Assembly: GCA_937902985.1 (NCBI GenBank)
Contig: CALFNG010000311.1
Span: forward strand, 1-43,845
Reading direction: 5' to 3'
DNA: 43,845 nt
Origin: an uncultured Myxococcales bacterium
GTDB taxonomy: Bacteria; Myxococcota_A; Polyangia; Polyangiales; Polyangiaceae
Shown here piece by piece: positions 23,720 through 27,925 of the stretch. How positions within the stretch are numbered: the stretch's first letter is position 1; each line of letters starts with the position of its first letter. Made by a program: the position numbers and the translations under genes. The notes under the pieces are model-generated. The model saw only the letters and a program-made list of their open reading frames with translations, ran no database searches and was not told the DNA's origin.

Positions 23720-23860
23720 GCTCGAGTTACCAGGCGAGCGCGGATGAGTGCCCAATGTGGTCAGTTGCGTGACCATGTCCGGGAGGGCCGAGGCCTCGAT
23801 CTGCGAGAGATCGTCGACGGCACCCCGGTTGCTCTGGTGCTGCCCCGCGAGGAGCCGCGA

Positions 23861-25141
23861 ATGCACATCAGAACGAAGACGACGGTTTGGCTGCTGGTCT
23901 CGGCGACGGCGGGCATCGGGTGCGGAAGCAACGCTCCGACGCCCCCCGTCGCGTGGGCCTGCGGCAGCACCGCCGTCCCGAATGGGACCGCGTTTCAATG
24001 CACGTCGGCCGATAGCCGCACGCAAGCCGCGGCGGCCACCCTCGGCGGAAGTTACACGTGCCCCGGGACCGGCTCGACGAGTCCGCAGTGTCCGCCGCCC
24101 GCAGAAGACGCCCCGCCTCCGGCAGACGACGCGTCGCCGGGCGATGATTCATCCGCGGACGCGGGCCCAACCCCGCCTGCGAATTCTCCTCCCGGCGCGG
24201 ACGCCGCTCCTCCCGCCGAGGACAGTCCGCCGCCGCAGAGCGACGCGGCAACGCCGACGCCACCAAGCGACGAGGCGGGATCGCCGCCGCCATCCACGAG
24301 CGGTGACGATGCGGGCACGCCAGGACACGGCCACGGGAACGGTGGCGGCAAACCGCCTGGCAACCCGCCTGGCAAAGGCGGCTCCGACGCCGGCGAAGAC
24401 GCCGCCGCGCCGCCCGTGACCGGCCCGCCTCCCTCGACGAACCCGCCCGGCGAGGGCTCGGACGGAGGCACCGACCAGCCCCCGCCCTACACCTGCGATA
24501 CGGAAGAGGGTCTCGTCGCCTGCACCCAGCCTCCGCAGTGCAGCGAAGGCACCCATCCGAGCGCGTGCGGGGCGTGCGTGCCCGACACGACCACGGACGA
24601 CTGCGTGCCGCCTTCAAGCGGCGGCTGCTGGGTGACCGGTGGAGGCTTCATCGATCCCGCGTCGGGTCAGGACAGCTTCGGCGGGAACGCGATGCCCATG
24701 AAGAGCGGCGCGGTCCGCGGCCAATGGGAGAACGTCGATCACGGCTCGGGCCTCAACATGCACGGCGAGCCGAGCTACCTCTATTGCCGGCACGTCGACG
24801 AGCCCGGGCCGGGGGCGGACAACGGGCCGCACCACGACTTCATCATGAACCAGGCCTATTTCGGCGGCCCGGCGCGCGTCTTCGCGAACAACGCATGGGC
24901 GGACGGGTACTGGTTCGACGTCGTCGTCGACGACCACGGCGAAGGGAAAGGGGCCAAGAGCGGCGGCCCGGACCTCTACCACGTCACGATCCGGAGCCTG
25001 AGCGGCCCCAATCAGTCCGGCGCGATCCTCTACGACGCCGAGGCGACGCTGAGCGGCGGCAACATCCAGCTGCATCCGCCGAACAACGGTCATCCGTATT
25101 CGTCGTCGACGCTGCCGTCGTGGGTGACGTTGCAGCCCTGA
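23861..25141 (+). CDS. lipoprotein with Pro/Asp-rich linker and post-COAP-1-like domain
   Basis: The ATG at 23861 after GAGGAG gives MHIRTKTTVWLLVSATAGIGC, a lipoprotein signal. A small Cys-containing domain (WACGST...FQCTSADS...YTCPGTG) is followed by about 130 residues of Pro/Asp/Ser/Gly linker. A Cys cluster (YTCDTEEGLVACTQPPQCSEG...ACGACVPD) comes next. The C-terminal 170 residues (WVTGGGFIDPASGQDSFGGNA, AVRGQWENVDHGSGL, then VVVDDHGEGKGAKSGGPDLYHVTI) resemble the post-COAP-1 domain found in secreted actinobacterial and myxobacterial proteins. It is presumably on the cell surface. Binding partner unknown. It precedes the Cys-repeat lipoprotein by 54 bases, possibly in one operon. Confidence 0.75.
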   Translation: MHIRTKTTVWLLVSATAGIGCGSNAPTPPVAWACGSTAVPNGTAFQCTSADSRTQAAAATLGGSYTCPGTGSTSPQCPPPAEDAPPPADDASPGDDSSADAGPTPPANSPPGADAAPPAEDSPPPQSDAATPTPPSDEAGSPPPSTSGDDAGTPGHGHGNGGGKPPGNPPGKGGSDAGEDAAAPPVTGPPPSTNPPGEGSDGGTDQPPPYTCDTEEGLVACTQPPQCSEGTHPSACGACVPDTTTDDCVPPSSGGCWVTGGGFIDPASGQDSFGGNAMPMKSGAVRGQWENVDHGSGLNMHGEPSYLYCRHVDEPGPGADNGPHHDFIMNQAYFGGPARVFANNAWADGYWFDVVVDDHGEGKGAKSGGPDLYHVTIRSLSGPNQSGAILYDAEATLSGGNIQLHPPNNGHPYSSSTLPSWVTLQP

Positions 25142-25195
25142 TCGCACAGGCATGGAACGAGTGACGCCCCGCACCCGAAGACGGTGGAGACGAAG

Positions 25196-27925
25196 ATGGT
25201 TTGGCGAAGCGTGGTCCGGTGGTGGGGCGTCCTCTTCGCCTTGTCCAGTCTGGTGGTCGTGGCCTCGTGCGGGGGGGCGTCGTCGGACCTGTCGGCGCCT
25301 CCCGACGGATCGGTGACGTTCGACGGCCCGACCTTCGGATCGCTCGACGGGGGCGGCGTGTGCCCGTCGAGGTCGTGCGCCGATCTCGGCTACAGCTGCG
25401 GCTGGAACGGTGACGGGTGCAACGACACGCTCCAGTGCGGGACGTGCGCGTCGCCCAACTACTGCGGCGGCGGCGGCTTCAGCCAGTGCGGGGACGCACC
25501 GGCCTCCGGCGACGCGGGAACGGGCTGCACTCCGAAGACGTGCGCCAGCCTCGGCTACACGTGCGGCGTCAACGGCGACGGGTGCGGCGGGACGATCGAC
25601 TGCGGGGCCGGCTGTCCCTCGCCGACCTACTGCGGCGGCGGCGGCTTCAGCCGGTGCGGCGCCGGCACGTCTGCCTCGCCCGACGGCGGCCCGGTCTGCA
25701 CGCCGACCACGTGCGCGGCCCTCGGGTACACGTGCGGCTTCGCGGGGGACGGATGCGGAGGGGTCCTCGATTGTCGAACCGCGGGCGGCTGCCCATCCCC
25801 GACGTACTGCGGGGGCGGCGGCTTCAACGTGTGCGGTGGCAACGCGGGCCCCTCGGCCTGCACGCCACGAACATGCGCCAGCCAGGGCTTCACCTGCGGC
25901 CCGGCGGGCGACGGCTGCGGGAACGCGCTCGATTGTGGCGCCACCTGCCCCGCGGGCCAAGCCTGCGGAGCTGCGGGACAGCCCGGCGTCTGCGGGGTCG
26001 GCCCCACGTGCACCGGCCTCTGCGCGCAGCGAGCGACGTGCACGGCAGGGACGACGACGATCACGGGTACCGTGCGCGCCGCGATCTCGAGCTGGGTGCC
26101 GGCGAACACCGTGCCCGATCCGGTGCCCGGGGTGCTCGTCTACATCCCGAACGCGCCCGTGCAGCCCTTCGCGCCGGGCGTGCACTGCGGCACGTGCAGC
26201 GCGGACGTGTCGGGCGATCCACTCGTGTCCACGACGACGAGCTTCGACGGCACGTTCACCCTGACGAACGTGCCGGTCAGCAAGAACGGATCGGACGCCA
26301 TTCCGATCGTGATCCAGCTCGGCCGGTGGCGGCGACAGTTCTCCTTCGTCATCGCGACACCGTGCGCGCCAAACCAGGTGGGGACGCTCTCCATGCCGAG
26401 CGTCGAGAGCGCCACGAGCGACATCCCGCTGACGGCGATCTCGACGGGGGCCGTGGACACGCTCGAGTGCATCCTGCTCAAGATGGGCGTCGACCAGGGT
26501 CAATTCACGACGAATGTCGCGGCGTCGCTGGGCCGGATTCACCTTTACAGCGCGGGGCCTGGAACCGCGGACACGGACGGGCACGGGCCCGGCGCGTACA
26601 TTGCGGCGCCGAAGCATCAGGCGCAACCCGACGAGTCGACCCTGCTGGGGTCCGGGGCGGCCGGCCCGTCGAGCGGCGGCACGTACATGAACTACGACCA
26701 GATCATGCTGCCGTGCTGGGGTGCCGAGTACTTCAAGGCCGCGGGCCCCCTCGCCAACTTGGTGACGTACGCGCAGTCGGGCGGGCACTTCTTCGCGACC
26801 CACTTCAGCTACACGTGGCTCTTCCAGAACGATCTCTTCGCGAGCACCGCCCTCTGGGACGTCAACTCCGACACGAATCCGAACTACACACCCTTCACCG
26901 GGAACGTCAGTAGGTCCGTGCCTCCGCCCGTGGCCACGCCTCCGGGACTGTTCGTCGAGTGGCTCAACTACGTCGGAGCCCTCAACGGGTCGAATCCCGC
27001 GGCCGCGCCGCCGAACCCTGCGACGGTCACGATTCAAGCCGCCCGCCACGACGTCGACGGCGTCCTCGGCTCGTCCGTCGACTGGATCGACGGGACGGAT
27101 CCGAATCAATCGGGCGCGAGCGCCCGCACGCTCCTCCACTTCACGTTCGACGTGAACTCGTGCGGTCACGCCATCTTCAGCGACTTTCACGTCGTCAATC
27201 AGACGAACACGAACGGCGTCGTGTTTCCGCAGGAGTGCGACAAGGCGGCGCTGACGGCGCAAGGCCGCGTGCTCGAATACATGATCTGGAACCTGGCCTC
27301 GTGTGCAGGTGGAGCACCGCCGGCCGGCTGCACACCGCGGACGTGCGCGGACCAGCAGCTCACGTGCGGTCCTGCCGGCGATGGCTGCGGCGGCGCGCTG
27401 GATTGCGGCGTCTGTGCCGCCCCTCAGACGTGCGGCGGGGGCGGGGTCGCGGGTCAATGCGGCGGCGGGGGCGCGTGCGCGCCGTCGACGTGCGCCAGGG
27501 AGCAGATCGCGTGCGGTCCCGCGGGAGACGGCTGCGGCAATCTGCTGCAGTGCGGAGCGTGCGTGCCGCCCCAGACGTGTGGGGGCGGAGGCGTTCCCGG
27601 GCAGTGCGGAGGGGGGAACCTGTGCCACCCCGAGACCTGCGCCGACCAGAACGCGACGTGCGGCGTGACGGGCGACGGCTGCGGAGGCACGCTCGATTGC
27701 GGAACCTGCGTCGCCCCCATGACCTGCGGCGGGGGCGGGACGCCGAGCCAGTGCGGCGGGGGCGGCTCGTGCACGCCGCGAACGTGCGCGGACGAGGGCA
27801 TCGTATGCGGGCCGACTGGGGACGGCTGCGGCAATCTGATCCAGTGCGGTCCGTGCGTCGCGCCCCAGACGTGCGGTGGGGGCGGCGTGCCGGGCAAGTG
27901 CGGCGGAGGAGCGTATTCACGATGA
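25196..27925 (+). CDS. large Cys-rich repeat lipoprotein with eight CxxCA-CGGGG modules
   Basis: Starts at ATG 25196, eight bases after GGAG; leader FALSSLVVVASC makes it a lipoprotein of 909 residues. Four Cys-rich modules of about 45-50 residues lie at the N-terminus (about 25358-25995) and four at the C-terminus (about 27326-27915). Each follows C-x-P-x-x-C-A...CG...GDGCG...(L/I)xCG...C..P..(Y/T)CGGGG...CG, ideal for disulfides. The central 430 residues hold a carboxypeptidase-regulatory-like beta domain (TVRAAISSWVPANT...FDGTFTLTNVPVSK) and a domain with HFSYTWLFQNDLF, GGHFFATH and an SDFHVVNQ segment, resembling ThuA-like folds. It is probably an adhesin or surface structural protein. 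Similar myxobacterial proteins are sometimes mislabelled as tryptophan synthase alpha chain; nothing here supports that. Confidence 0.8.
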   Translation: MVWRSVVRWWGVLFALSSLVVVASCGGASSDLSAPPDGSVTFDGPTFGSLDGGGVCPSRSCADLGYSCGWNGDGCNDTLQCGTCASPNYCGGGGFSQCGDAPASGDAGTGCTPKTCASLGYTCGVNGDGCGGTIDCGAGCPSPTYCGGGGFSRCGAGTSASPDGGPVCTPTTCAALGYTCGFAGDGCGGVLDCRTAGGCPSPTYCGGGGFNVCGGNAGPSACTPRTCASQGFTCGPAGDGCGNALDCGATCPAGQACGAAGQPGVCGVGPTCTGLCAQRATCTAGTTTITGTVRAAISSWVPANTVPDPVPGVLVYIPNAPVQPFAPGVHCGTCSADVSGDPLVSTTTSFDGTFTLTNVPVSKNGSDAIPIVIQLGRWRRQFSFVIATPCAPNQVGTLSMPSVESATSDIPLTAISTGAVDTLECILLKMGVDQGQFTTNVAASLGRIHLYSAGPGTADTDGHGPGAYIAAPKHQAQPDESTLLGSGAAGPSSGGTYMNYDQIMLPCWGAEYFKAAGPLANLVTYAQSGGHFFATHFSYTWLFQNDLFASTALWDVNSDTNPNYTPFTGNVSRSVPPPVATPPGLFVEWLNYVGALNGSNPAAAPPNPATVTIQAARHDVDGVLGSSVDWIDGTDPNQSGASARTLLHFTFDVNSCGHAIFSDFHVVNQTNTNGVVFPQECDKAALTAQGRVLEYMIWNLASCAGGAPPAGCTPRTCADQQLTCGPAGDGCGGALDCGVCAAPQTCGGGGVAGQCGGGGACAPSTCAREQIACGPAGDGCGNLLQCGACVPPQTCGGGGVPGQCGGGNLCHPETCADQNATCGVTGDGCGGTLDCGTCVAPMTCGGGGTPSQCGGGGSCTPRTCADEGIVCGPTGDGCGNLIQCGPCVAPQTCGGGGVPGKCGGGAYSR
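25358..25995 (+). repeat. N-terminal block of four Cys-rich coding repeats
   Basis: Four in-frame units of roughly 135-160 bases each, sharing the sense of GDGCGG and TACTGCGGCGG-type DNA. They diverge at synonymous sites, so they are old rather than recent duplications. Confidence 0.7.
27326..27915 (+). repeat. C-terminal block of four Cys-rich coding repeats
   Basis: Four units encoding TCADQ...CGPAGDGCG...CGxC..PQTCGGGG..GQCG. They are closer to each other than to the N-terminal block, consistent with separate local expansion. Confidence 0.7.

Follow-up and report, generated by a model that had tools for sequence, protein, structure and literature searches.

The window analysed here is a stretch of 43,845 nucleotides from an uncultured Myxococcales bacterium (contig CALFNG010000311.1 of assembly GCA_937902985.1). 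Within it we have analysed a gene at positions 25196..27925 of the plus strand, whose protein carries four cysteine-rich modules on each side of a central core. We have found that this symmetry follows a rule that holds across the family: 88 of the 93 complete two-sided homologues carry as many modules before the core (N side) as after it (C side), from 2+2 up to 11+11. In these data the count-matching rule is established. As its best explanation we propose, with a probability of roughly 0.58, that the two arrays of one chain would zip together in antiparallel order and form a stalk with the core as a head at its tip.

The list of open reading frames starts the gene at a GTG (25184..27925, 913 amino acids), but translation more likely begins at the ATG at 25196, which has the better placed GGTGGAG. 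From this ATG, the sequence and the pattern common to homologues predict a lipoprotein signal peptide (25196..25270) ending in VVVASC. The lipobox reads VVVASC-GG, the codon of the predicted lipid-carrying Cys is 25268-25270, and the pattern is present in 84 of the 93 two-sided homologues. According to this reading, the protein is predicted to be lipidated and located on the outer surface.

The eight modules lie four on either side of a core of ~440 residues, each with 8 Cys, and together they hold 64 of the 76 Cys of the protein. This bears out an earlier note, made from the DNA letters and open reading frames, which had described a lipoprotein with four C-rich modules on each side of a central region. 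The module search and comparison of the paralogues place the N-side modules, all on the plus strand, at 25361..25492 (N1, residues 60-103), 25526..25660 (N2, 115-159), 25697..25837 (N3, 172-218, with a longer spacing between Cys5 and Cys6) and 25859..25996 (N4, 226-271, adjoining the core). The C-side modules are at 27329..27463 (C1, residues 716-760, adjoining the core), 27476..27610 (C2, 765-809), 27623..27757 (C3, 814-858) and 27770..27904 (C4, 863-907), with the stop codon six residues further on. A module is about 45 residues long, with the consensus C.P.TC.......CG...DGCGG.L.CG.C..P..CGGGG.P..CG. The CGGGG at the seventh Cys, which the same note had called strict, is found in seven of the eight modules and is replaced by CGAAG in the fourth (N4). 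The 88 equal-count proteins contain 820 modules. In this set each of the eight Cys columns is 95-100% Cys, and the aligned columns hold exactly eight Cys in 727 modules.

Searches of known families returned little. In Pfam at E<=1 the whole protein has only two matches, both far below the family cut-offs; in NCBIfam, PHROGs and the PDB sequences it has no significant match. No repeat of the myxo_disulf_rpt or DUF4215 type is found in it by Pfam or NCBIfam at E<=1, the module profile matches nothing among the PDB sequences, and no match of the modules to an enzyme family has been found.

For the homologues, we have taken the best 80 of 106 confirmed matches of a core-based search, representing 79 loci that are mostly labelled Myxococcota or Deltaproteobacteria, and have extended the search to the class and the phylum. 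In the class, 147 of 192 genomes have a core match at E<=1e-3. The sample amounts to 176 distinct cores, 149 of them in complete frames: 93 are two-sided, 13 have modules before the core only, 3 have one module after the core only, and 40 are module-free, a share that is not representative since mainly long open frames were taken from the wider search. The 27 cores running off a contig end are left out of the 93; ten of these are two-sided as seen (1+5, 2+3, 3+3, 3+6, 3+7, 3+8, 4+2, 4+4, 4+6 and 9+5). Eight core-bearing frames found later, outside the 176, comprise five 0+0 and three 0+1, and none is two-sided. In addition, three loci in Acidobacteria-labelled genomes carry the core without modules (L045, L070 and L081, of which L070 runs off its contig).

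The genome of the window itself contains five module-flanked paralogues (3+3, 4+4, 6+6, 6+6 and 8+8), equal in all five cases, as well as core-bearing proteins without modules (L013-L018, L021-L023, L207-L209). Since five paralogues of one genome and 93 homologues share the two-sided layout, it is confirmed that the 4+4 arrangement of the window protein is not a matter of chance. The symmetry pointed out in the earlier note is thus real, but it was taken there as a feature of one protein, while the matching of the counts is family-wide.

The 88 equal proteins are distributed over 2+2 (21), 3+3 (3), 4+4 (26), 5+5 (7), 6+6 (13), 7+7 (7), 8+8 (9), 10+10 (1) and 11+11 (1). Even numbers per side (n) are much commoner than odd ones, with 70 of the 88 when relatedness is ignored in the count, and perhaps this excess comes from modules gained in pairs on each side. 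Adjacent two-sided paralogues can differ in n, as in L029 (5+5, 7+7 and 3+3) and L200 (5+5, 5+5 and 2+2).

Equality on this scale is far above the level reached by permutation. In 79 of the first 84 complete two-sided proteins the counts agree, while permuted C counts give a mean of 17.4 and a maximum of 33 in 20,000 permutations. On the core tree of these 84, the minimum numbers of changes by the Fitch method are 32 for N, 32 for C and 35 for both jointly, which are approximate values, since support is low at many nodes. The correlation of independent contrasts is r 0.93, with a slope of 0.87. Of 23 non-overlapping pairs with differing counts, 18 show the same shift on both sides, and each of the other five includes one of the five unequal proteins. 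A measure that is free of any module model agrees with this: Cys totals before and after the core correlate at 0.965 in the 93 proteins, and Cys/8, when rounded, is equal on both sides in 78 of them. Such equality, kept over many independent changes, indicates a constraint that links the number of modules before the core with that after it.

It might be argued that the equality is an artefact of sampling, assembly or counting, since most genomes are draft metagenome assemblies, the arrays are repetitive, and part of the frames were chosen for length. We consider this very improbable. The frames were selected on core and length and not on equality, and a later batch, chosen by frame length without knowledge of the counts, gave nine complete two-sided proteins that are all equal (five 5+5, two 2+2, one 8+8 and one 11+11). 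Collapse during assembly would yield inequality, not equality, and in the complete chromosome of Minicystis rosea all three genes found obey the rule (L035 with 2+2, L052 and L053 with 4+4). As for counting, the first-pass profile missed degenerate modules in L102 (7+6), L098 (6+5), L106 (4+3), L060 (4+3), L095 (4+2) and L103 (3+4). The refined profile made all of these equal except L060, which was set to 4+4 by reading, and the profile agrees at a looser cut-off.

We then have to ask which module would go with which. In the explanation we favour, the N array would pair with the C array of the same chain module by module, N_i with C_(n+1-i), in the manner of a hairpin. The similarity patterns of the two arrays have been compared with weights for sequence clusters, and several values of n and several clustering thresholds were tried. 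For n of at least 6 (31 proteins in 15 clusters), the correlation of the patterns (the score) in mirror order is 0.257, while shuffles give 0 +/- 0.062 and none of 2,000 is as high; it is also above the value obtained when the partner array is taken from proteins of other clusters (P 0.0003). In parallel order the score is only 0.064 (P 0.14). For n of at least 4, the mirror score is 0.136 (P 0.0085). An earlier unweighted form of the test (mirror 0.184 vs parallel 0.026; P 0.012 against other proteins) is superseded by the weighted one. The mutual information between paired modules has been judged against family-wise permutations, because shuffling within each protein had made every regular register look significant. 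Mirror pairing gives z 3.8-4.1 for n of at least 3, with none of 600 permutations as high, and z 3.3-3.9 for n of at least 5, while parallel pairing for n of at least 3 gives z 0.1-0.9 and is not above the permutations. Finally, when the 8+8 protein L105 is compared with five 7+7 relatives, the summed best places of the extra modules are N6 and C3, which are each the third module counted from the core; C4 is nearly tied with C3, and N5 comes next after N6. Overall, a mirror register about the core is supported by these sequence comparisons, though not proven. The candidate of parallel pairing, N_i with C_i, is not favoured by array patterns or by mutual information in most settings; direct similarity leans slightly towards it.

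The direct similarity brings in another explanation, namely that the equality is a by-product of gene growth, in which blocks of modules were copied from one side to the other and nothing is physically paired. The arrays are indeed homologous and alike (mean identity 53.6 for N-N, 55.5 for C-C and 51.1 for N-C), and N2 and N5 of L011 resemble a block duplication inside one array. After double centring, the similarity of N_i to C_j in parallel and mirror order is 0.68 and -0.68 for n=2, 0.22 and 0.0 for n=3, 2.52 and -1.31 for n=4, 0.62 and -0.21 for n=6, 1.48 and -1.30 for n=7, and -3.39 and 0.66 for n=8. That is, parallel order is slightly higher for n=2, 3, 4, 6 and 7, as block copying would have it, and lower only for n=8. 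On the other hand, block copying predicts a clear likeness of N_i and C_i, whereas no more than 37 of 67 proteins have an index-matched identity above their mean; in 75 of 88, N-C identity is lower than the N-N and C-C average; and the parallel register is not the one that the array patterns and the mutual information favour. We regard this explanation as improbable. Since physical partners need not resemble each other, low direct similarity is compatible with mirror pairing, yet it also keeps block copying alive.

If the arrays do pair within one chain, they would form a two-stranded stalk stabilised by disulfides. Its base would be held by the N-terminal lipid, with the C-terminus beside this anchor, and the core would sit at the tip as a head. 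A module without a partner would leave a face exposed or the stalk bent; if an unpaired module is costly in this way, the counts on both sides should change together. In this arrangement n, from 2 to 11, would set the distance of the head from the membrane, and the genome of the window, with 3, 4, 6, 6 and 8 rungs, would show related heads at several heights. Expansion within genomes and the differing n of neighbouring paralogues are consistent with such a display. We infer the physical pairing, and with it the stalk, the height and the display of the head, from the fact that pairing within the chain is the simplest constraint to explain three observations at the same time: the equality, the mirror order, and the near-absence of residues past the last module. 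The last of these is clear in the sample, as 85 of the 93 two-sided proteins end at most 3 amino acids from the profile end of their last module, and the remaining 8 have a small extra Cys-rich tail containing CC.

Several observations weigh against the antiparallel pairing within one chain. Five proteins are unequal (L030 with 2+3, L043 with 7+8, L047 with 6+4, L054 with 8+4, and L118 with 6+5), and a six-frame scan of these five revealed no convincing hidden module; the sole extra match, in L118, is a weak one of 25 residues on the opposite strand (E 0.82). L043 lies near 8+8 relatives on the core tree, whose low support has been mentioned above and likewise counsels caution. For n of at least 4, the mirror pattern is not above that of other clusters (P 0.14). 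The mutual information of parallel pairing becomes borderline for n of at least 5 (P 0.017-0.09, with 0.017 in one of three settings), and that of mirror pairing drops to z 1.5 (P 0.08) once the end modules are removed. Besides the direct similarities given above, 31 of 67 proteins have a mirror-matched identity above their own mean, fewer than with matching by index, and distance covariation of the mirrortree type gives widely scattered mirror ranks of 1.0, 0.46, 0.02, 0.51 and 0.02 for n=2, 4, 6, 7 and 8. When the relatives of L105 are taken singly, N6 is the best place in three of five and C3 in three of five, and with larger count differences the added modules have no clear mirrored places. 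In the AlphaFold2 models, made for the window protein and a 2+2 homologue, the arms are not placed with confidence (pTM 0.56 and 0.65), and the models neither support nor refute pairing. In addition, the proteins with modules before the core only show that an array can exist without a partner array.

This one-sided class (L117, L138, L141-L146, L162, L163, L169, L171 and L174) has 4 to 20 modules before the core and none after it, and all 13 complete members carry a tail of 39-157 residues with 50-74% Pro. In four members read, the modules are of a YCG..GDGCGG type. These proteins could be parallel homodimers, and this bears on a further alternative, in which pairing takes place between molecules (in trans): an N array would zip with the C array of a second molecule to give a dimer or a chain, possibly a matrix fibre or a link between cells. 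Such pairing equally predicts the same N and C counts in each gene product and the antiparallel mirror register, and we have found nothing that speaks specifically against it. We nevertheless think it unlikely, although less so than the other alternatives, as a hairpin in cis needs one chain only and would avoid mispairing among paralogues of different n, such as the five two-sided ones of one genome. The earlier note had suggested an extended adhesive or matrix protein; the surface lipoprotein, the disulfide modules and the symmetry that it describes agree with the sequence, but nothing found here bears directly on an adhesive or matrix role.

Modules of this kind also occur in proteins of other architecture. 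In the genome of the window, a lipoprotein-like GH5 cellulase (L019:842-2875, minus strand; Pfam Cellulase E 2.7e-41) has two such modules ahead of its catalytic part, and this hints that enzymes may use the module as an accessory domain too. In the same genome, L024 (913 amino acids, without the core) has two runs of five modules, ten in all, which are of a variant type (KTV.QACGSNTCGTASDGCGG), with a short Cys-rich stretch between the runs. By association, the cellulase lends something to the idea that the modules might be carbohydrate-binding units, which would form two equal patches flanking the core, with equality as a balance of avidity. However, a balance of avidity would not explain why the counts are exactly equal all the way from 2 to 11, nor why there should be a mirror register, and the one-sided proteins exist with their single arrays of 4 to 20 modules; we rate this idea slightly below even block copying.

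The core, for which the earlier note had claimed likeness to ThuA, has been compared by predicted structure. AlphaFold2 models were made for the window protein (alignment of 20 sequences of the 4+4 type, mean pLDDT 73.8) and for the 2+2 homologue (17 sequences, mean pLDDT 77.3), and in both the core consists of a beta domain and, after it, an alpha/beta domain. The first half (26003..26386, plus strand, boundary approximate) may have a beta-sandwich fold of the transthyretin or CNA-B-like kind, to which the Foldseek matches 3uaf and 6yoa point weakly; for the window model, 3uaf has E 6.0e-4 but an rmsd of 9.0 and a TM-score of 0.51 by target length, which is a weak match. The second half (26387..27319, plus strand, boundary approximate) is predicted to have the GATase1/ThuA fold. 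Foldseek relates the window model to the ThuA/GATase1-like 4jqs at E 2.1e-4, and VIA-align, whose rows mainly cover the core and not the modules, relates the model of the 2+2 homologue to 4jqs (Z 15.5, rmsd 3.4, 209 aligned), 3rht (Z 15.1) and IFT52 (Z 14.7). A search of viral structures with the model gave weak matches only. The second half carries the conserved motifs GG..FATH and SDFH, and among 15 paralogous cores compared from the genome of the window, the G, G, A and H of the former and the D and H of the latter are invariant. The ThuA-like label is thus upheld by fold comparison of the predicted models; on the other hand, Pfam at E<=1 gives no ThuA match for the whole protein or the core, and an extra beta domain stands in front.

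Compared with known systems, the predicted fold of the second half is like that of ThuA/GATase1-like proteins (4jqs, 4e5v, 1t0b, 3rht) and also like the N-terminal fold of IFT52 and an oligosaccharyltransferase subunit (5fms, 6ezn). Unlike the ThuA-like proteins, the window protein is without a Pfam ThuA match and is predicted to be exported and lipidated, with the beta domain in front of this fold and, in the two-sided class, with two module arrays flanking the core. The myxobacterial disulfide repeats of the TraA or myxo_disulf_rpt type are likewise rich in Cys and belong to surface proteins of the same phylum; the window protein differs from them in matching no Pfam or NCBIfam repeat model. 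TraA kin-recognition receptors have a PA14-like variable domain, while Pfam at E<=1 finds no PA14 match in the window protein. We know of no description of TraA arrays that flank a core in equal numbers.

For the proposed geometry, SMC and Rad50 offer a comparison. Their antiparallel fold-back arms flank a tip domain in one chain and are equally long for this reason. The likeness is that the stretches flanking a tip domain would be kept at equal length by antiparallel pairing, which here is a proposal; the difference is that the present arrays are discrete disulfide modules on the surface and not continuous coiled coils in the cytoplasm. In the stem of von Willebrand factor, two identical chains are zipped side by side in parallel, so that the counts match automatically, whereas the arrays of the present family are two distinct regions of a single chain, with counts that match by evolution. 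What the two cases would share is a stem of small Cys-rich domains, which in von Willebrand factor is the C-domain stem (PMC13276585). A literature search, at the level of search results, brought up nothing apparent on the protein family or the count rule. We give a little less than even odds to the wider claim that this is an undescribed architecture, in which antiparallel pairing would force equal copy numbers and would make a modular ruler of 2 to 11 rungs, with the height tuned by mirrored pairs of modules.

As for the surroundings of the gene, the upstream gene at 23744-25141 (plus strand) has a linker rich in Pro, Asp and Gly, and a post-COAP-1 domain that stays below threshold (35 bits vs a cut-off of 40). 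An open frame of 1004 codons on the opposite strand (24614-27628, minus strand) overlaps the gene, most likely as a by-product of GC-rich coding sequence. Ten other open reading frames of the window were compared with Pfam; matches were obtained for six of them, to ordinary families throughout (citrate transporter, alpha/beta hydrolase, cyclophilin, CNNM, P-type ATPase and ammonium transporter).

The copy number of tandem domains in surface proteins usually drifts freely. In this family, two separate arrays of one protein have stayed equal over about thirty inferred changes. If the pairing is true, this would be a simple, predictive rule for the design of a disulfide stalk of adjustable length, and the length could be read from the sequence; it would also give a testable structural role to a widespread surface family that has no match in Pfam or NCBIfam.

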